From the NCBI GenBank assembly GCA_021775875.1, contig JAJFHA010000011.1:382297-446296 (forward strand): a DNA stretch of 64,000 nt. Reading direction: 5' to 3'. The notes under the pieces were generated by a model, which did no database searches, was not told where the DNA came from, and worked only from the letters and a program-made list of their open reading frames with translations. Numbering within the stretch: position 1 is the first letter of the stretch; the number at the start of each line of letters is the position of its first letter. This document shows positions 32,586-43,394 of the stretch, piece after piece. The DNA comes from Hyphomicrobiales bacterium (GTDB taxonomy: Bacteria > Pseudomonadota > Alphaproteobacteria > Rhizobiales > NORP267). The position numbers and the translations under genes were made by a program.

Positions 32586-33719
32586 GTGAAGACATATGAT
32601 GTGATTGTCATCGGCCTTGGCGCGATGGGAAGCGCGGCGGCATATCATTGTGCGAAACGCGGAGCGAACGTGCTTGGTCTGGACGCTAATGCACCCAATC
32701 ACACCCTTGGGTCGTCTCATGGAGCGACACGAGCCATCCGGGAGACATATTTTGAGTCACCAGAATACGTGCCTTTGTGCCAACGGTCATATAATTTATG
32801 GCGAGAACTGGAGCAAGATTCAGGAAAATCATTGCTGGCCACAAACGGCGCCATTTACGTAGGCCCCAAAGAACACCCTATGCTGAAAGGCGTTGCATCG
32901 GCTGCCGAACAACATTCTCTCCCGATCGAGCGACTTTCCCGAGATGAGGTAAAGACCCGTTTTACCGGGTTCGTCTTGCCAGATGGCTGGGAAGGAATAT
33001 TCGAACAACGTGGTGGCGTATTGCAATCTGAAATGTGCCTTCATGCCCATACCGAACTAGCCAGGAAACATGGAGCGGAACTCAAATTCGGGGTTGGAGA
33101 AACCACCTGGCATAAAAACAAAGCTGGGCATTTTGTCGTAAAAACAGAAAACGACGAATTCGAATCTGCTTCCGCTATCCTGACACTGGGGCCGTGGGCA
33201 TGTAACGCGTTGCGCGACCTCAACCTTCCTATTAACGGACGACGTATCACCATAGTACATTTTGATACTGCTGAACCTGCACGTTATAGCCAAGCAGATT
33301 TTTCGGTACAGTTTTGGGCAACACCGGAAGGGGTATATGGGGGTTTTCCGCACATTGAAGGTGAGGGACTGAAGATAATGCGTCACGACACCGGCGATGT
33401 TTGCACGCCACAAACAGCAAGACGGGATGTAACCGAAGCGGACAGGGCCGACGTTGTCGACTTTGCAAAGAAATACATGCCTTATGCGAATGGTGGAATC
33501 ACAAAATCATTGGTGGGTCTCTATACAATGACACCTGACAATCATTTCATCATTGATCGTCATCCCGAATTTGAAAATGTGGCCTATGCAACCGGATTTA
33601 GCGGCCATGGCTTCAAATTTGCCCCGGTAATTGGCGAAGTTCTCGCAGATATGGTTCTTGATGGCTCGACACGACATCCGACGAATTTTCTAAAAGCCGC
33701 AAGATTTGGCAAATCCTGA
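32586..33719 (+). CDS. N-methyl-L-tryptophan oxidase / monomeric sarcosine oxidase family
   Basis: YDVIVIGLGAMGSAAAYHCAKRGANVLGLD, GSSHGATRAIRETYFE, CMYTMTPDNHFIIDRHP-type C-term (LYTMTPDNHFIIDRHPEFENVAYATGFSGHGFKFAPVIGEVLADM). Confidence 0.92.
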   Translation: MKTYDVIVIGLGAMGSAAAYHCAKRGANVLGLDANAPNHTLGSSHGATRAIRETYFESPEYVPLCQRSYNLWRELEQDSGKSLLATNGAIYVGPKEHPMLKGVASAAEQHSLPIERLSRDEVKTRFTGFVLPDGWEGIFEQRGGVLQSEMCLHAHTELARKHGAELKFGVGETTWHKNKAGHFVVKTENDEFESASAILTLGPWACNALRDLNLPINGRRITIVHFDTAEPARYSQADFSVQFWATPEGVYGGFPHIEGEGLKIMRHDTGDVCTPQTARRDVTEADRADVVDFAKKYMPYANGGITKSLVGLYTMTPDNHFIIDRHPEFENVAYATGFSGHGFKFAPVIGEVLADMVLDGSTRHPTNFLKAARFGKS

Positions 33720-33813
33720 AATTTCCTTCAGCGTACAGAGAGTTACTTGCTTATTTCCATTAACTGAGCCTATATTTAGGTTATCGGGGGCGATAGCGAA
33801 GGGAAACACGGGT

Positions 33814-36800
33814 ATGTCGCGTTGTACCTTAATCGAAGCTGTCGGTAAAACCGGCACAGCCGCCATTTTTCAGACTTTCCTATTCGCTTTTCTGTTCCTT
33901 TTTTTGCTGCCTCTTGGGCAGGCCCGGGCGCAGCGCACGAATCTTGTCGATGGTGCTGCCATCGTTTCAGCCTTTTCAGGACTTTCTTCAGCGCAGCAAG
34001 GCACTATGCTTGATGCTGCTGGTATCTCGCTAAAAATATTTGATCTTTCCAGTCCGGGCAGGGAAGCTGATGGGACTCTTGTGTCTATGGATGAGCTTCT
34101 GGCGCTCCGGGCAGAAGATATCGGACAGGTTTTTGCAATCGCGATTGATCAGGATGAACGCCCAAGTATTTTTATTGGCGCAACCTCTCTCTACGGCCTT
34201 TACCGAACTAGCGACAATAATGATTGGGATCCGGTCATGTGGGGTCGCAGCGGTGGCCCTGGCACAATCTACAGATTGCACCCAGATAACGGTTATCAAC
34301 CGGAACCACTCACCGAAATTCTCAGTGGTCAGCGGGAAAATTCGGGAGCCGGTCTCGGCGATATCGTATTCGATGCGCGCAACCGCCAATTGATCGTATC
34401 CAATCTTGAAACTGGAATGATCCACCGGGTCGACCTGAATACCGGTGACTCTGTTGAAATCTATGACCACGGGATTGATGGCAGATCATATTTTTTCGAT
34501 GCAAATACTGAAACATACGAAATTCTTGATGTTGCACCGTGGAATGAAGCAAGCGCGGATATGTCGAATTGTGGCGCAGGCCCTGAGAGTAGGGCGGCCG
34601 AACGTTTTATGTCCGATCCGGCATGCTGGGGCTATGCATCCTACCTGAGGCGAACATTCGCCCTTGCCATCAATTTTGATGCAAGCACTGGCGATACCCG
34701 GTTATATTATTCGGTTTGGAGCTCAACTCCGTTTGGTGACCCGTCATGGGAGCCTCAGAGTGCCGAAGCACAGAATACAATCTGGTCGGTATTGCTGGAT
34801 GAGAGCGGGGCATTTGACCTGACAGACGTGCGTCGTGAAATCATCATGCCACCATTCTATGTTACCCGACAGGACCGTACCCAGTTTGGCGAGAGCCAGC
34901 CTGTGGCTAGCATCACCTTTGGCGAAGATGGAGCGATGATTGTTGCTGAACGCGGTATTCCATTGGGATTGATTGCAGACGGAAACGTAAACCCGATTGT
35001 AGCTCAAGGCGCAGGCCGCGTGATTAAATTCGTACGCGATGACAGTGGCAAATGGGTTAATGATTCCCGCTACGATGTTGGCTTTGGTGAACGGGAATTT
35101 GACGATCCGCCGCATTTGCGCGCAGCCGGGTCCGGCGGTGCAGCTCTTGGATATGGATATGCTCCTCCCGGACAAATTGACCCTGAAAAATGGGGCGAGA
35201 CGGTATGGATTACCGGTAATATTCTTTGCGGACCTGGCGCAACTTGTGGTGATGAAAATGTTGACGGCATTCAAGGCACGCCGATAACCAGTAATGTTGA
35301 ATTAGCGCCTGTCGCCAGTTTTATCCCATTCCCGTCTCCGGGTCCTGCAACGCCTGCAACCGGGCCCAATGCGTCTTATTTTCTGAATTTCAACGGCCCT
35401 GGCAGCACTACATTATCACTGGGTGATATTGCCATAGTCCGCACTGTTGGCAACGAACAATTCCCGCCACCAATTCAGGAAGATGTGGATCTTGCTCTGT
35501 TCAAACGGTCTGATATAAATCTCTGCCGTCCAAACGGCATTTGCCTGTTTGTCATCGAGATCCGCAATGTCGGCGGCGAAGCTTTTACCGGCCCGCTTTC
35601 AATCTCCGATACAATCAACGCTAATTTCAGGCTGGATACGGTTTCACCGAGTGGGTGGAGTTGCACGAATGTTGCCGGGACTTATTATTGCCAGATACCG
35701 GAAGTTTCACTCCTTCCTGGCCAATCAACCGAGATAAATATCTCTTTCTTCGTCCGGCCTGGCATTACCCAATCCCGCGTCAGAAATTGCGCCGTCATAA
35801 ACTGGCCAGGTCAAAGCGGCCGAGGACAGATATTGTCAGTCCAGATTGCCCTCCTGCACTTAGGCTTTGATCCCGGAACCCCGGACGGAATTTCAGGTCC
35901 ACGTACACGCCGCGCCATCAGGGAAGCAGAACGTGCCTACGGGTTACCGCGGACAGGCGAAATTTCCGTGGAATTATTGGATATCCTGTTTGGCACTGAT
36001 GGAGGCGTATCACCCGACCATAATGTTGATAATGATCGCGACTGCGCGCGTGTTACTGTGGATATTCCGCCACCACCAGCGCATATCGCGCAAATTTCTG
36101 CCTTCCATCGCAGGTTCCAGTCCAGCGCCCACAATCCCAGAACAAGTGCGCCAATTCAGATTCATGTTCCTGCAATATCCTCGTTCCATGTGCGGTACCG
36201 TTCTTCAATGCACGACGGCGCAACCACCCGGCCGATCCCAATTCACCGTCGCCCGATTTCCCGGTTTCACCAAACCTTCCGCTCGAACAGGCATGATGGT
36301 TTTGTTTCAAGCGCGTTACCAATCCATAACGCGCTGATTTCCACGTTCCACAACAGGTTCAATTCGGTAGCGCATAATATTTTGACGAGCAACCAATTGC
36401 CAATCCATAGACCAGGTATTTCGAACTTCCACCAGAACTGGCAATCCCGCTGGCATGCCCGCGCAACGTCACGCCACAATTCCGGCTTGTCACAATTCCA
36501 TGGCCGGTTCAATTCAAACCAGCATCTGGTGGGAACATCGAACCAGGGGCCTGTTCATTTGCCGATTCTGTCGACATTCCATGGCCGTTTCAATTCAAAC
36601 CAGCATAATCTGCCTACAAGTCGACAGCTGCCGGTGCATCTACCACGAGTATCACGCGCCCAGAACCCACCGATTCATATTCCACGGGTATCCAGAGCCC
36701 AAAACCCACCGGTTCATATTCCACGTGTGTCCAGAGCCCAGAACCCACCGGTTCATATTCCACGTGTGTCCAGAGCCCAGAACCCTGCGCCCGTGCCTAT

Positions 36801-37317
36801 CCCGCCAGTGCATTTGAGACGCTTGTCCCGGGCTCAAAACCCACCGGTTCATATTCCACGCGTGTCCCGGGCTCAAAACCCTGCGCCCGTGCCTAACCCG
36901 CCAGCGCATTTGAGACGCTTGTCGCGGGCTCAAAACCCACCGGTTCATATTCCACGTGTGTCCAGAGCCCAGAACCCGGTTCCTGTGCCAAACCCACCGG
37001 TTCACCGGAGAAGCAGGTCTCAGGCCCAGCAAGCACCAGTACCGGCACCAGTTGCACCGGTTCACCGGAGAAGCAGGTCCCAGGCTCAGCAAGCACCAGT
37101 ACCGGCACCAGTTGCACCGGTTCACCGGAGAAGCAGGTCTCAGGCTCAGCAAGCACCAGTACCGGCTCCAGTTGCACCGGTTCACCAGAGAAACAGGTCT
37201 CAGGCTCAGCAGGCTCCAGCCCCAGCTCCTGTAGCGCCTGGAAGGGTGCACACCATCCCGTTGTCACGACAACAGCAGGCGCCTGGCAGCACGCTGCAAC
37301 AAGAGGGGTCGCGTTGA
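33814..37317 (+). CDS. Large secreted protein: propeller-like N-terminus, DUF11-like segment, peptidoglycan-binding-like domain, long His/Pro/Arg repeat tail
   Basis: Signal peptide (FQTFLFAFLFLFLLPLGQARAQ); LSVQIALLHLGFDPGTPDGISGPRTRRAIREAERAYGLPRTG resembles PG_binding_1; C-terminal 7x A, 8x B, 4x C repeats. Confidence 0.85.
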   Translation: MSRCTLIEAVGKTGTAAIFQTFLFAFLFLFLLPLGQARAQRTNLVDGAAIVSAFSGLSSAQQGTMLDAAGISLKIFDLSSPGREADGTLVSMDELLALRAEDIGQVFAIAIDQDERPSIFIGATSLYGLYRTSDNNDWDPVMWGRSGGPGTIYRLHPDNGYQPEPLTEILSGQRENSGAGLGDIVFDARNRQLIVSNLETGMIHRVDLNTGDSVEIYDHGIDGRSYFFDANTETYEILDVAPWNEASADMSNCGAGPESRAAERFMSDPACWGYASYLRRTFALAINFDASTGDTRLYYSVWSSTPFGDPSWEPQSAEAQNTIWSVLLDESGAFDLTDVRREIIMPPFYVTRQDRTQFGESQPVASITFGEDGAMIVAERGIPLGLIADGNVNPIVAQGAGRVIKFVRDDSGKWVNDSRYDVGFGEREFDDPPHLRAAGSGGAALGYGYAPPGQIDPEKWGETVWITGNILCGPGATCGDENVDGIQGTPITSNVELAPVASFIPFPSPGPATPATGPNASYFLNFNGPGSTTLSLGDIAIVRTVGNEQFPPPIQEDVDLALFKRSDINLCRPNGICLFVIEIRNVGGEAFTGPLSISDTINANFRLDTVSPSGWSCTNVAGTYYCQIPEVSLLPGQSTEINISFFVRPGITQSRVRNCAVINWPGQSGRGQILSVQIALLHLGFDPGTPDGISGPRTRRAIREAERAYGLPRTGEISVELLDILFGTDGGVSPDHNVDNDRDCARVTVDIPPPPAHIAQISAFHRRFQSSAHNPRTSAPIQIHVPAISSFHVRYRSSMHDGATTRPIPIHRRPISRFHQTFRSNRHDGFVSSALPIHNALISTFHNRFNSVAHNILTSNQLPIHRPGISNFHQNWQSRWHARATSRHNSGLSQFHGRFNSNQHLVGTSNQGPVHLPILSTFHGRFNSNQHNLPTSRQLPVHLPRVSRAQNPPIHIPRVSRAQNPPVHIPRVSRAQNPPVHIPRVSRAQNPAPVPIPPVHLRRLSRAQNPPVHIPRVSRAQNPAPVPNPPAHLRRLSRAQNPPVHIPRVSRAQNPVPVPNPPVHRRSRSQAQQAPVPAPVAPVHRRSRSQAQQAPVPAPVAPVHRRSRSQAQQAPVPAPVAPVHQRNRSQAQQAPAPAPVAPGRVHTIPLSRQQQAPGSTLQQEGSR
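36079..36633 (+). repeat. Type A protein repeats: 7 units of 24-27 aa
   Basis: Units such as IHVPAISSFHVRYRSSMHDGATTRPIP, VHLPILSTFHGRFNSNQHNLPTSRQLP; His at positions 2, 10, 18 in every unit. Confidence 0.9.
36634..36999 (+). repeat. Type B repeats: 8 units of 13 or 19 aa (39/57 bp)
   Basis: VHIPRVSRAQNPP and VHLRRLSRAQNPP, some extended with APVPNPP; near-identical DNA copies. Confidence 0.95.
37000..37239 (+). repeat. Type C repeats: 4 units of 20 aa (60 bp)
   Basis: VHRRSRSQAQQAPVPAPVAP x3 then VHQRNRSQAQQAPAPAPVAP. Confidence 0.97.
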
Positions 37318-37343
37318 GTAAACGTGCTCCGGAAGTGAATATC

Positions 37344-38369
37344 ATGCGACTTCCAGCAATGGTTTTCGTGGCGACGATCTTGATCGCTGCAATTCCAGCA
37401 AGCACAGCCGCAGCCGAGAATCGTGCGAAAAACGGGGTCTCCCTGAACCAAACCTATCTGGAGAGCGTTCTTGATAGCCGGAACATCGATATTGCTAACA
37501 TCATGGATGTATTCCAGCATGTTTTCAGTTCACTGCCGGATGAAGTGACGGTCTATCCGACCGAGAATTATTTTTATTTTCAGTTCGGCTATCGAGGGCT
37601 GCTTTATGCGGGAAACATGCGGCTCGATGTCGGTGACCGGGACGAAGGTGTCCTGCATTTCGCCTATTTCAATTTGTTCGAGGACTGGAACGCGGAATTA
37701 CAAACAGACTACCGACCTCTGAATGCCAGCGACGGGGTTGTTGTCGAAAAGCTTGAAGACCTGAAATACCAAATCAGTTTTCGCGGAAAGCGCGTTGAAT
37801 TCAATCTAAACGATTTGAGCAATGTACAACCGCCCGCTAATGCATTGGCTGAGGGTGAAACCTATCTTGGGCCAGTTTTCGACGAATCCGGTATTCAGTT
37901 TTATCTGATCTTCAACGAGCAGGAAAAATACGTCACCTTCATCCTCAACGAGGATGGCCCGCCTCCTGACCGGCTAATTCCGTATAACGAAGCCGAACCT
38001 GATATTTTGCTGGGAATGCGGACAGGATTTGCCTTTTTCCAGGACCCTTTTCGAAACCGGAAAATCCTGATCGGGGTCTATCAAGGCAATGTTCAGAACA
38101 ATAATTATTTTGACGGGCCGTTTGATCAATTGCCGGACAATTTCATCGAAGGAAATGAACTTCAAGATGCTTTGTTGACCCTTTATCCCGGACTGGAAGG
38201 CGAGATTGACCGGTTGGGGAATTTTGCAGGCCAACAGGGCAGAGTGTTGGTCAATCCATATATCAACTATAATTACCTCACCGAACTTGATGTATTTCTT
38301 GAGTGCAAGGAGGCATCAGCTGACGATGCTGCTCTAATTCAATGCATTTTGCCGCAGGCCCCGGAATAG
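37344..38369 (+). CDS. Secreted protein of unknown function
   Basis: Signal peptide MRLPAMVFVATILIAAIPASTAAAE; immediately downstream of the repeat protein (frame open from TTG 37314). Confidence 0.75.
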   Translation: MRLPAMVFVATILIAAIPASTAAAENRAKNGVSLNQTYLESVLDSRNIDIANIMDVFQHVFSSLPDEVTVYPTENYFYFQFGYRGLLYAGNMRLDVGDRDEGVLHFAYFNLFEDWNAELQTDYRPLNASDGVVVEKLEDLKYQISFRGKRVEFNLNDLSNVQPPANALAEGETYLGPVFDESGIQFYLIFNEQEKYVTFILNEDGPPPDRLIPYNEAEPDILLGMRTGFAFFQDPFRNRKILIGVYQGNVQNNNYFDGPFDQLPDNFIEGNELQDALLTLYPGLEGEIDRLGNFAGQQGRVLVNPYINYNYLTELDVFLECKEASADDAALIQCILPQAPE

Positions 38370-38525: not shown

Positions 38526-40076
38526 TTGACGGTGAAGGATAACTTGCGCGGAACAGGCGACGACACGGAACGTACCACGACGTCCAGGCTTAGTTTCCTG
38601 TGGCGCGGCGAACTCGTTGAACTCGACGATTTTGAACCGACCACGACAATCCTTGAATTTTTGCGCGAACATCATTTTGCTACTGGCACCAAGGAGGGCT
38701 GTAACGAAGGCGATTGCGGTGCCTGCACAATTGTTCTAGGACGACCGGAAAACGGCAAGCTGCGTTACAGGGCAATCAACGCCTGTATCCAATTTCTTGG
38801 CACTCTTCACGGCGCACAACTCTTAACGGTTGAAGACCTGCAAGGGGACAATTGTGAATTACATCCCGCACAAGCGACGATAGCTGAAAAACACGCCGCG
38901 CAATGCGGGTTTTGCACGCCCGGATTTGTCATGTCGTTATTCGCTTTGACCCATCGCGATAATCAAAATGCAGTGTCCAGACAAATAATCACCGATGCAG
39001 TAGCTGGAAATTTATGCCGATGCACCGGTTACCGCCCCATCATCGACGCAGCATTTGCAGCCTGCGCAAAACCGGTAAATGACCAATTTTCAAAAAACGA
39101 AAACGATGTGCTGGTAAAACTGGCCTCGATTGACACTGATCAACATCTATATGTTGGTAACAATCAAAAGTTTTTCGCAAGCCCCGCATCGGAAGACGAG
39201 CTTGCTAACCTCTATCTAAAGCACCCGGATGCGTTGTTGGTAGCGGGTGCGACCGATATCGGTTTGTGGGTCACAAAGCAGTTGCGGGAATTCGAAAAAA
39301 TTATTTATCTGGGTCGCGTAAATTCGCTCAATTCTTGCTTCAAATCAGAAACCGGACTTGAGATCGGAGCCGCAGTCACCTTCGCCAATGCCCATGCTGA
39401 ACTGGCAGAAATTGACCCTGATCTTGGCGAATTGGTGCGCCGGATCGGGTCTGAACAAATTCGCAATTCTGGGACCGTTGGCGGCAATATTGCGAATGGA
39501 TCTCCAATCGGCGATAGCCCTCCGGCCTTGATCGCGTTGGATGCGGAAATTGAATTGCGAGAAGGAAAGACCACACGCCAAATCCCTTTGGAGACTTTCT
39601 TCATCGAATACGGCGAACAGGACCGCGCGGAAGGAGAATTTGTCCGTGCGATCAATATTCCCAAACTTGGGGGGGATGAACATTTCAGATGTTTCAAAAT
39701 CGCCAAACGCTTTGATCAGGATATCAGCTCGGTTCTTGGCGCTATGCGTTTAAAAATCGTTGACGGCACAATACTGGAGGCCAGGATTGCATTTGGCGGC
39801 ATGGCAGGCACGCCAAAACGCGCTTCAAATACAGAGGCAGCACTCATCAATATCAATCTGAGCGATCAATCTAATTGGCGGCGGGCGGTCGATAATCTTG
39901 GTTTGGATTTTCAACCCATGTCAGACCAACGCGCCAGTCAATTCTATCGTATGCAAGCAGCCAAAGGTTTGCTCACCAAAGCATTGATTGAATTGGCCGA
40001 ACCAAGCGCTGCAACCCGGCTCATCGCCCTTCGCCCGGAACAGAGGCCAGAAAAACGGGATGCCACCAATGGGTGA
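38526..40076 (+). CDS. xdhA: Xanthine dehydrogenase small subunit (2Fe-2S/FAD)
   Basis: GTKEGCNEGDCGACTIVL, QCGFCTPGFVMSL, GNLCRCTGYRPIIDA, GGNIANGSPIGDSPPALIALDA. Confidence 0.95.
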   Translation: MTVKDNLRGTGDDTERTTTSRLSFLWRGELVELDDFEPTTTILEFLREHHFATGTKEGCNEGDCGACTIVLGRPENGKLRYRAINACIQFLGTLHGAQLLTVEDLQGDNCELHPAQATIAEKHAAQCGFCTPGFVMSLFALTHRDNQNAVSRQIITDAVAGNLCRCTGYRPIIDAAFAACAKPVNDQFSKNENDVLVKLASIDTDQHLYVGNNQKFFASPASEDELANLYLKHPDALLVAGATDIGLWVTKQLREFEKIIYLGRVNSLNSCFKSETGLEIGAAVTFANAHAELAEIDPDLGELVRRIGSEQIRNSGTVGGNIANGSPIGDSPPALIALDAEIELREGKTTRQIPLETFFIEYGEQDRAEGEFVRAINIPKLGGDEHFRCFKIAKRFDQDISSVLGAMRLKIVDGTILEARIAFGGMAGTPKRASNTEAALININLSDQSNWRRAVDNLGLDFQPMSDQRASQFYRMQAAKGLLTKALIELAEPSAATRLIALRPEQRPEKRDATNG

Positions 40077-42396
40077 ATTCCTGACATTATCTGAACCAAA
40101 ACTCCGCTCTGTCCGTGAGCCGATAGCGCATGATAGTGCAAACCTTCATGTGTCAGGTGCAGCGCGTTATATTGACGACCTGCCAGAACCACAGGGGTTA
40201 CTGCATCTGGCGGTTTATGGCGCCGATATTTCATGTGGTGAAATCACCAATATCGACATTTCTGCGGTGAGAAATGTGCCCGGAGTGGTGGCTGTCTTAA
40301 TGGCCGACGATATTCCTGGCGGCAATGATGTCGCGCCTGTCAAAGACGACGACCCGGTCTTTACTGACAAAGAAATCAAGTTTCACGGTCAGGTCATTTT
40401 TGCTGTCGTCGCCGAGACCAGAATGCAGGCCCGCAAGGCGGCGAAGCGGGCAAAAATCTCTTACAAGGAAGAAACCCCGGTCCTGACGATTGATGATGCG
40501 ATTGCTGCGAATTCCAAAATATTGCCGGATTACACGATGACACGCGGCAATGCAGAACCAGCTCTTGAAGCTGGTCCGCATCGCCTCAAAGGGCAAATCG
40601 AGATTGGCGGCCAGGAGCAATTCTATCTTGAGGGCCAGATATCGCTGGCAATCCCTGGTGAAGCCGGCGAAATCACGATCCATTGCTCAACCCAGCATCC
40701 GAGCGAAGTTCAGCATGGGGTTTCCCATGTTCTGGGATGCGCCAATCATCTGGTGACGGTTGAATGCCGCCGCATGGGTGGCGGGTTTGGCGGCAAGGAA
40801 TCCCAGTCCGGCCAATGGGCGGCAATTGCGGCGTTAGCTGCTCTCAAGACCGGCAAAGCCTGTAAAATCAGGTTGGACCGCGACGATGACATGATAATGA
40901 CCGGCAAACGCCACCCCATGCGGTGCGATTATGATGTCGCCTTTGATGATAACGGCGTCATTCAGGCGATTGTCATGAATTACGATGCCGATTGCGGTTG
41001 TTCTGCCGACCTGAGTGGCGGGATCGTCGACCGCACCATGTTCCACGCCGATAATTGCTATTATCTCGACCAATCACTGATTAATTCGCGCCGCTTGATG
41101 ACCAACAAGGTTTCCAATACCGCTTTTCGCGGTTTTGGCGGACCTCAGGGCATGATTGGAATAGAAACAGTTATTGACGCCATTGCCCGAAATTTGGGCC
41201 GTGATCCGCTGGATATTCGGCTTGCCAATTTGTACGGCGATGAAGAACGGAATGTGACGCCATATCACATGACCGTTGAAGACAATATCGCCCCCGAAAT
41301 TATCAAAGACCTTGAAGCCAGTTCGGATTATCGGGTGCGGCGGAAAGATATTGCCGCCTTCAACAAAGCTAACCCCATTCTGAAAAAAGGCCTTGCGCTG
41401 ACACCAATCAAATTCGGTATTTCCTTCACCGTGATGCATCTCAATCAGGCTGGCGCTCTGGTCAATGTTTACCGCGATGGGTCCATCACCATCAATCATG
41501 GGGGCACCGAAATGGGGCAGGGACTTTACATAAAAGTCGCCCAGGTTGTGGCCGACGAATTTGGGGTTGATCTCGACCGGGTCAAAATCACCGCCACCAC
41601 AACGGATAAAGTTCCAAACACATCACCAACGGCCGCATCATCCGGCACAGATTTGAACGCGATGGCAGCTTTGGCAGCGGCCAGAAAGATTCGCAAAAAA
41701 CTCTCGGAATTTTCAGCAGAGCTATTCAAAGTCCCGGCTTCGGAAATTTCGTTCCAGGACAATATTATTCGCGGTGGCAATCAGCAATTGTCATTTGATG
41801 ATCTGGTGCACAAAGCCTATTTCGCCCGGATCGGACTATCGGATACAGGTTTTTATAAAACTCCGAAAATCCATTACGATCAGGAAGCGGCGCGGGGGCG
41901 GCCTTTCTATTATTTCTCCTATGGCGCGGCCTGTAGCGAAGTCACCATAGATACCCTGACCGGTGAAATGCGCGTCGATAGGGTCGATATCCTGCACGAT
42001 GTGGGACATTCGATAAATCCGGCCATGGATATCGGCCAGATCGAAGGCGGATTTGTCCAGGGTATGGGCTGGGTCACCAACGAAGAATTGTGGTGGGACG
42101 ATAAAGGCGCATTGAGGACACACGCGCCGTCCACTTATAAAATTCCTACAGCGTTTGATGTTCCGGAAGATTTCCGCGTTGCACTTCACAATGGTGCAGG
42201 CAATGTAGAACAAGCCATCTACCGTTCAAAAGCGGTGGGAGAACCGCCACTAATGTTGGCGATCTCGGTGTTTGCAGCTATTTCAGACGCCGTTGCCTCG
42301 CTCGCTGATTATAAATCGTTACCGCCACTTCAACTGCCAGCGACCCCGGAAAATATTTTGAACGCGGTCAACGCCATGCAAGGAGAGGTGTCATGA
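40060..42396 (+). CDS. xdhB: Xanthine dehydrogenase large (molybdopterin) subunit
   Basis: YIDDLPEPQGLLHLAV, GGGFGGKESQ, NTAFRGFGGPQG, HGGTEMGQGLYIKVAQV, SKAVGEPPLML. Overlaps the xdhA end. Confidence 0.95.
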   Translation: MPPMGEFLTLSEPKLRSVREPIAHDSANLHVSGAARYIDDLPEPQGLLHLAVYGADISCGEITNIDISAVRNVPGVVAVLMADDIPGGNDVAPVKDDDPVFTDKEIKFHGQVIFAVVAETRMQARKAAKRAKISYKEETPVLTIDDAIAANSKILPDYTMTRGNAEPALEAGPHRLKGQIEIGGQEQFYLEGQISLAIPGEAGEITIHCSTQHPSEVQHGVSHVLGCANHLVTVECRRMGGGFGGKESQSGQWAAIAALAALKTGKACKIRLDRDDDMIMTGKRHPMRCDYDVAFDDNGVIQAIVMNYDADCGCSADLSGGIVDRTMFHADNCYYLDQSLINSRRLMTNKVSNTAFRGFGGPQGMIGIETVIDAIARNLGRDPLDIRLANLYGDEERNVTPYHMTVEDNIAPEIIKDLEASSDYRVRRKDIAAFNKANPILKKGLALTPIKFGISFTVMHLNQAGALVNVYRDGSITINHGGTEMGQGLYIKVAQVVADEFGVDLDRVKITATTTDKVPNTSPTAASSGTDLNAMAALAAARKIRKKLSEFSAELFKVPASEISFQDNIIRGGNQQLSFDDLVHKAYFARIGLSDTGFYKTPKIHYDQEAARGRPFYYFSYGAACSEVTIDTLTGEMRVDRVDILHDVGHSINPAMDIGQIEGGFVQGMGWVTNEELWWDDKGALRTHAPSTYKIPTAFDVPEDFRVALHNGAGNVEQAIYRSKAVGEPPLMLAISVFAAISDAVASLADYKSLPPLQLPATPENILNAVNAMQGEVS

Positions 42397-43394
42397 ACGC
42401 ACCCTGGTCCAGTTTGGCAAAAACGATCAAAAATGACGGCATTGCCGCCATACTGACAGTTGCTGAATTATTGGGGTCTGGCCCGCGCGAAGTAGGTGCC
42501 CGCATGATGATAAATGCGTCTGGCAAGATACAAGGCACAATCGGCGGCGGCAGGTTGGAATGGCAGGCATTGGCGCAAGCCCAACGCATGATCAGGAAGA
42601 TTGAGAAAGTGCCCACAAGCACTTTCTATTCCCTCGGTCCGGAACTCGGACAATGTTGCGGCGGCGCGGTGACAGTCCTGTTTGAAGTTTTTGATCTTGA
42701 CGATCTGGAATTTGTTGAACAAGCGGCAGCACTGGAAGAAGAGAGTGCCGTCTTTTTCGTTGAGACAAACCCGACTGCATCAGGTGCGATGCGTACAATT
42801 CAAGGTAGCATAATTAGTCAAATTCATGACTTTGAGTTGTTCGAAGACAGCAGCAGTTTGGCACGCTATTCAAATACCAATACGCCGCTTTGGCTTTACG
42901 GAGCAGGAAATGTTGGGGCAGCATTGATAGCCGCACTTTCCCCGTTGCCCTTCGATGTTAACTGGATTGACCAGCGACCAGATCAACTTTTACCGCACCA
43001 ACATTCGGACATTCGATACCAAATCAGCAACGATCCGGTTGTAACATTGAATGATTGCCCGGAAGGCGCGTTCGTCATTGTCTTGACCCATAGCCATAGT
43101 CTCGATTTTGACCTTTGCGAAAAGGCATTGAAATTAAACAAATTCCCTTATGTCGGCGTCATTGGCAGCAAGACGAAAGCTGCCAGATTTAGATCGCGTC
43201 TAAAATCAAACGGGTTGGACGAGCTTGAAATTGCGCAACTGATTTCACCTCTGGGTGTTCCGTCAATCAAAGGCAAGGAACCGACAATTGTTGCTGCAAG
43301 TATTGTCGCGCAATTATTGGAATACCGTGAGTGCCTCGTGGCCAAAAACCCAGAAACAAATTTCGAGCAACGGGAAAATATCGCCCATGGCTAA
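42393..43394 (+). CDS. xdhC: Xanthine dehydrogenase accessory protein XdhC
   Basis: SLGPELGQCCGGAVTVLFE, LYGAGNVGAALIAALSPLPFDVNWIDQR, GVIGSKTKAARFRSRL. Confidence 0.94.
   Translation: MNAPWSSLAKTIKNDGIAAILTVAELLGSGPREVGARMMINASGKIQGTIGGGRLEWQALAQAQRMIRKIEKVPTSTFYSLGPELGQCCGGAVTVLFEVFDLDDLEFVEQAAALEEESAVFFVETNPTASGAMRTIQGSIISQIHDFELFEDSSSLARYSNTNTPLWLYGAGNVGAALIAALSPLPFDVNWIDQRPDQLLPHQHSDIRYQISNDPVVTLNDCPEGAFVIVLTHSHSLDFDLCEKALKLNKFPYVGVIGSKTKAARFRSRLKSNGLDELEIAQLISPLGVPSIKGKEPTIVAASIVAQLLEYRECLVAKNPETNFEQRENIAHG

Follow-up and report, generated by a model that had tools for sequence, protein, structure and literature searches.

Histidines that recur at regular places along a flexible chain are familiar from the prion-type octarepeats and other His-rich metal-binding repeats. 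Surface proteins of Hyphomicrobiales that carry DUF11, propeller and PG_binding_1 domains form a second point of reference; they share their N-terminal architecture with the protein discussed here. The nearest idea among known systems is HxsA (TIGR03979) of the Hxs radical-SAM system, which is encoded together with dedicated partners (PMC9062424). Our array protein is encoded in a window of 64,000 nucleotides (the whole stretch of DNA that was analysed) from a Hyphomicrobiales bacterium. Like HxsA, it appears to be exported, and it combines His/Ser repeats with a peptidoglycan-binding domain and a dedicated co-encoded partner.

The likeness to HxsA goes no further. The NCBIfam model TIGR03979 gives the array protein 27.4 bits against a cut-off of 121.65, and the match is confined to the peptidoglycan-binding (PG) domain. 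In the HxsA proteins of this order a short HSS/H-x-S tract precedes the PG domain, whereas in the array protein H-x4-S motifs follow it. The serine or threonine stands at position +5 from the histidine and not at +2, as tandem His-Xaa-Ser repeats would demand. An HxsB-type radical SAM protein (TIGR03978) was not matched above the cut-off in this genome. Since every defining feature that we tested fails (score, repeat spacing and HxsB), we rejected membership in HxsA. Nor was a relative of the partner found in the short flanks of three HxsA loci. The array is also unlike prion-type octarepeats: it has no fixed octad, and its constant second residue is the Ser/Thr at +5. A search for H-x4-S in the open-licence literature returned no match. 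We found no described family or system with the features of array and partner, and it is there that the novelty lies, not in a proven new chemistry.

The array-bearing gene is an open reading frame (33706..37317; 1203 amino acids counted from the first TTG) on the forward strand, as are all features of the window given below. The likely true start is the ATG at 33814, followed by a stretch that by eye resembles a signal peptide and ends in ARAQ. The product is thus probably a large exported protein, in agreement with the first-pass annotation, which had called it large and secreted. Its N-terminal part (33934..35400) is a beta-propeller-like domain outside the Pfam families, recognised with AlphaFold and Foldseek and kept in relatives. 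The Foldseek matches are sialidase and integrin-alpha heads, with E-values down to 4e-10 and low TM-scores; in these proteins an Ig-like domain follows the propeller. Residues 595-698 of the array protein (35488..35799) match DUF11 (PF01345) weakly (E 0.01), with 16.6 bits against a gathering score of 24.6. Given the Ig-like beta strands that AlphaFold predicts here, the domain is DUF11-like only. PG_binding_1 (PF01471; 35830..35988, residues 709-761) is above threshold with 43.3 bits against a gathering score of 23 (E 4.3e-11), and the region also matches the PG-binding domains of lytic transglycosylases. The repeats make up the C-terminal tail, which starts near residue 792. The AlphaFold model is fair for the folded part, and its pLDDT is about 30 in the repeats (model residues 714-908), which is weak proof of disorder for a repetitive sequence and an alignment of 12 rows. 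The chain is probably flexible, if not floppy.

Three types of repeat unit had been described in this tail, and all seven units of type A, eight of type B and four of type C are present. The type A stretch (36079..36633) holds 21 H-x4-[S/T] motifs in seven triplets spaced 8-8-11 or 8-8-7; the first histidines of the units lie at 36082, 36163, 36244, 36325, 36406, 36475 and 36556, 27 or 23 amino acids apart. The type B stretch (36634..36999) contributes eight H-x4-S motifs, with units starting at 36637-36946, two of which are HLRRLSRAQNP variants of HIPRVSRAQNP. Type C (37000..37314) adds four H-x4-S motifs (HRRSRSQAQQAPVPAPVAP) in units starting at 37003-37183, and a last motif, HTIPLS, at 37249. 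Hence, the array begins at 36079 as first proposed and runs beyond its proposed end at 37239. Tandem Repeats Finder independently recovers the B and C arrays with periods of 39, 96 and 60.

The spacing H-x7-H-x7-H, previously taken as invariant, does occur in all seven A units, but it is confined to them and many relatives lack it. H-x4-[S/T] is the feature that all three types share. What looked like three separate repeat families is therefore one motif on different linkers. All 34 histidines in the 411 residues encoded by 36079-37314 have a Ser/Thr at +5. In 500 shuffled versions of the same residues 4.4 ± 1.9 histidines had one, and the maximum was 10. The repeats are confirmed to be real, beyond chance. 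At the DNA level, the units in B and C are almost identical copies. The serines at +5 are encoded by TCA, TCC, TCG, TCT, AGT and AGC, and the single threonine by ACC. Such a mixture of TCN, AGY and threonine codons indicates that the residue itself is kept by selection, beyond mere copying of DNA.

A genome search returned homologues from within the genus, the family and the order, although a scan of the contig collection with the N-terminal part gave no match. H-x4-[S/T] is obeyed by 76-100% of the histidines in the C-terminal part of each of 28 related proteins. The first-pass annotation had staked its reading on a histidine spacing that is conserved in orthologues; we found that H-x7-H is lost in many relatives while H-x4-S is kept. 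Spacing varies between and within proteins (6, 7, 8, 11, 14 and others, also 8-8-11), and some relatives have pure spacings of 6 (HNKKRSHLRTGS), 7 (HRPVGSV) or 8 (HLPVGSKV), or a mixture of 6 and 8. A rule that is kept with such variable linkers points to a linear motif and not to a fixed period. In a set of 58 arrays the residues between H and S show no more than a loose preference, for P/K/R at +2 and for G at +4; membership in the set was decided by the motif, so that its H and S values hold by construction. Proteins chosen by propeller homology are free of this selection bias. The repeat belongs to no named family according to Pfam, NCBIfam and PDB sequence searches, as had been supposed. 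In relatives the contig often breaks off within the array or next to it (G002, G003, G017, G138, and L035, which is G002:C99 at a contig end). Hence, draft assemblies probably hide or truncate array genes.

Immediately downstream lies the partner gene (37314..38369), whose start codon overlaps the stop of the array gene (an alternative ATG is found at 37344). It encodes a probably exported protein of about 320 amino acids, with strongly conserved blocks (YPTENYxYF and NNYxDGPFDQLPDNF) and a conserved pair of cysteines. Pfam and NCBIfam searches with ten members gave no significant match, and a PDB sequence search gave none. The predicted fold (AlphaFold pLDDT 78, pTM 0.71) also has no match in the PDB (best Foldseek E 0.02, TM 0.1). 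A fold unlike anything solved means that no catalytic site can be named. A search by name turned up partner relatives in at least 161 stretches of contigs from sequenced species. The best 80 of these 161 are mostly from Hyphomicrobiales, with outliers in Actibacterium and Legionella gresilensis that suggest transfer. A sample of 385 genomes from the class added a single genome with a partner relative. No partner was found on plasmids, and the viral-contig collection holds a single partial partner with no array seen beside it.

Wherever an array has flanking sequence, the partner gene adjoins it in the same orientation, with either gene first; arrays without a partner sit at contig ends (e.g., G138:C46 and G003:C50). 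Of 80 scored partner rows, 44 are paired with an array, and these are spread across the partner tree. A survey of the order, with 297 genomes, gave 39 with a partner and 14 with an octad-type array, and all 14 are within the 39 (p 4e-14, a value uncorrected for kinship and inflated by the relatedness of the genomes). Three array profiles detected no array in 13 genomes without a partner. The pairing persists whether the array is found on a propeller-PGB protein, on a DUF11-type protein without a propeller (L030 6099-8603) or on a small protein of about 220 amino acids (L120, L123). Arrays without a propeller (L030, L120, L123, L114) are still paired, whereas array-less homologues with DUF11, propeller and PG_binding_1 domains (G009, G059) and other propeller proteins without arrays have no partner. 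The exception is G030, where a propeller protein without an array coexists with a solo partner. Hence, the presence of the partner goes with the array, not with the propeller. In one genome (G041, L030:6099-13186) two different array proteins, with 54 and 23 motifs, flank a single partner gene.

We recognised no third neighbour that is common to most pairs. In Legionella gresilensis (L114:5905-9798) the order is reversed, and a small array of almost pure hexads follows the partner with no gap. Next to this apparent operon, on its downstream side, is a gene identified by eye as SagB/nitroreductase-like with a membrane N-terminus; we rejected it as a modifying enzyme because it is absent from all other loci. 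Downstream of the partner in our window (38526-43394) are genes for a molybdenum hydroxylase of the xanthine-dehydrogenase type (a fused FeS/FAD subunit, a Mo subunit and XdhC). Genes for Mo-hydroxylases (of xanthine-dehydrogenase and CO-dehydrogenase type), XdhC or MocA recur near partners in several other lineages, with and without arrays (L024, L068, L069, L073, L079, L072, L120, L123, L155, L172, L181).

The remaining 36 of the 80 scored partners lack an adjacent array. Their scatter over the tree forces at least five changes, and they often lie beside era, recO or parC (identities by eye). Such solo partners occur in a housekeeping region with pdxJ/era/recO/parC-like genes in Xanthobacteraceae-like genomes (L117, L122, L124, L126, L139, L140 and others). 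A search of 13 solo-partner genomes, with profiles that each miss array types outside their building set, gave no array elsewhere. The invariant partner residues are identical in paired and solo forms, and a search for pair-specific residues found none. Judging from these shared residues, the core activity of the partner would work without an adjacent array, and the partner appears to have a role for which one is not strictly required.

We think that array and partner form one two-gene system, in which a flexible basic chain tethered to peptidoglycan presents H-x4-[S/T] motifs as sites where the partner docks or which it modifies, and we give this reading a probability of roughly 50%. The array protein would be an exported protein of the cell envelope held to peptidoglycan, with a C-terminal third that would serve as the flexible chain and carry the 34 motif copies. 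The acidic partner, likewise exported, would dock on or modify these motifs. If the motifs are sites for the product of the next gene, then the two proteins act as one system and probably build a multivalent assembly in the envelope or at the surface. This reading draws on the motif, its conservation, the pairing, the co-occurrence, the PG-binding domain and the complementary charges; export, disorder of the chain and physical contact between array and partner are what we infer. Arrays are net positive in 44 of 45 cases and partners net negative in 44 of 45, which fits mutual contact. Irregular linkers with a constant two-residue rule give the array the appearance of a string of short linear motifs. 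Whether the partner binds the His/Ser pairs or modifies them chemically is a guess, with about equal chances, and so is the purpose of the assembly, which could be adhesion or wall organisation. More specifically, and only tentatively, array and partner may be an undescribed post-translational system, in which the partner, either in the periplasm or at the cell surface, acts on every His/Ser pair of the array (e.g., by cross-linking or cyclising it), thereby making a modified envelope polymer.

One could also argue that the tail is a polycationic adhesive or wall filler that sticks to acidic polymers (LPS, polysaccharide or DNA), and that the partner is merely a co-expressed envelope protein. 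The basic charge of nearly all arrays fits this idea, as does a propeller-Ig-PGB architecture similar to that of adhesion proteins. We nevertheless consider it unlikely, since charge by itself requires no H-x4-S rule and the partner follows the array, not the propeller. Rather improbable is a metal-binding chain, in which the histidines would take up Zn, Ni, Cu or Fe to store or buffer the metal or to cross-link the envelope through it. With 34 histidines in 411 residues, and histidines kept in every array, this suggestion is a natural one. It leaves the Ser/Thr at +5 (76-100%) and the dedicated acidic partner unexplained; the usual co-ligands Cys, Asp and Glu are scarce in many arrays, and among the recurring neighbours, annotated unsystematically, we recognised no metal transporter or regulator. 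The regular solenoid or fibre that the octad had suggested is very improbable: exact runs of 6, 7 or 8 residues do occur in several relatives, but spacing varies along a single protein and from one relative to the next, and the low pLDDT of the array in the model (residues 714-908) does not favour such a structure. Drift of recent tandem duplications, with a motif under no selection, would account for the near-identical B and C copies and is hardly credible, as divergent A units retain H and S with mixed codons and the rule is kept in relatives whose linkers have nothing in common.

A rule of two residues that survives in dozens of linkers with nothing else in common, and a conserved partner to go with it, point to a single, specific interaction or chemistry. 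If our reading of a docking or modification system is true, a family with members in at least 161 contig stretches, mostly of Hyphomicrobiales, would gain a function.
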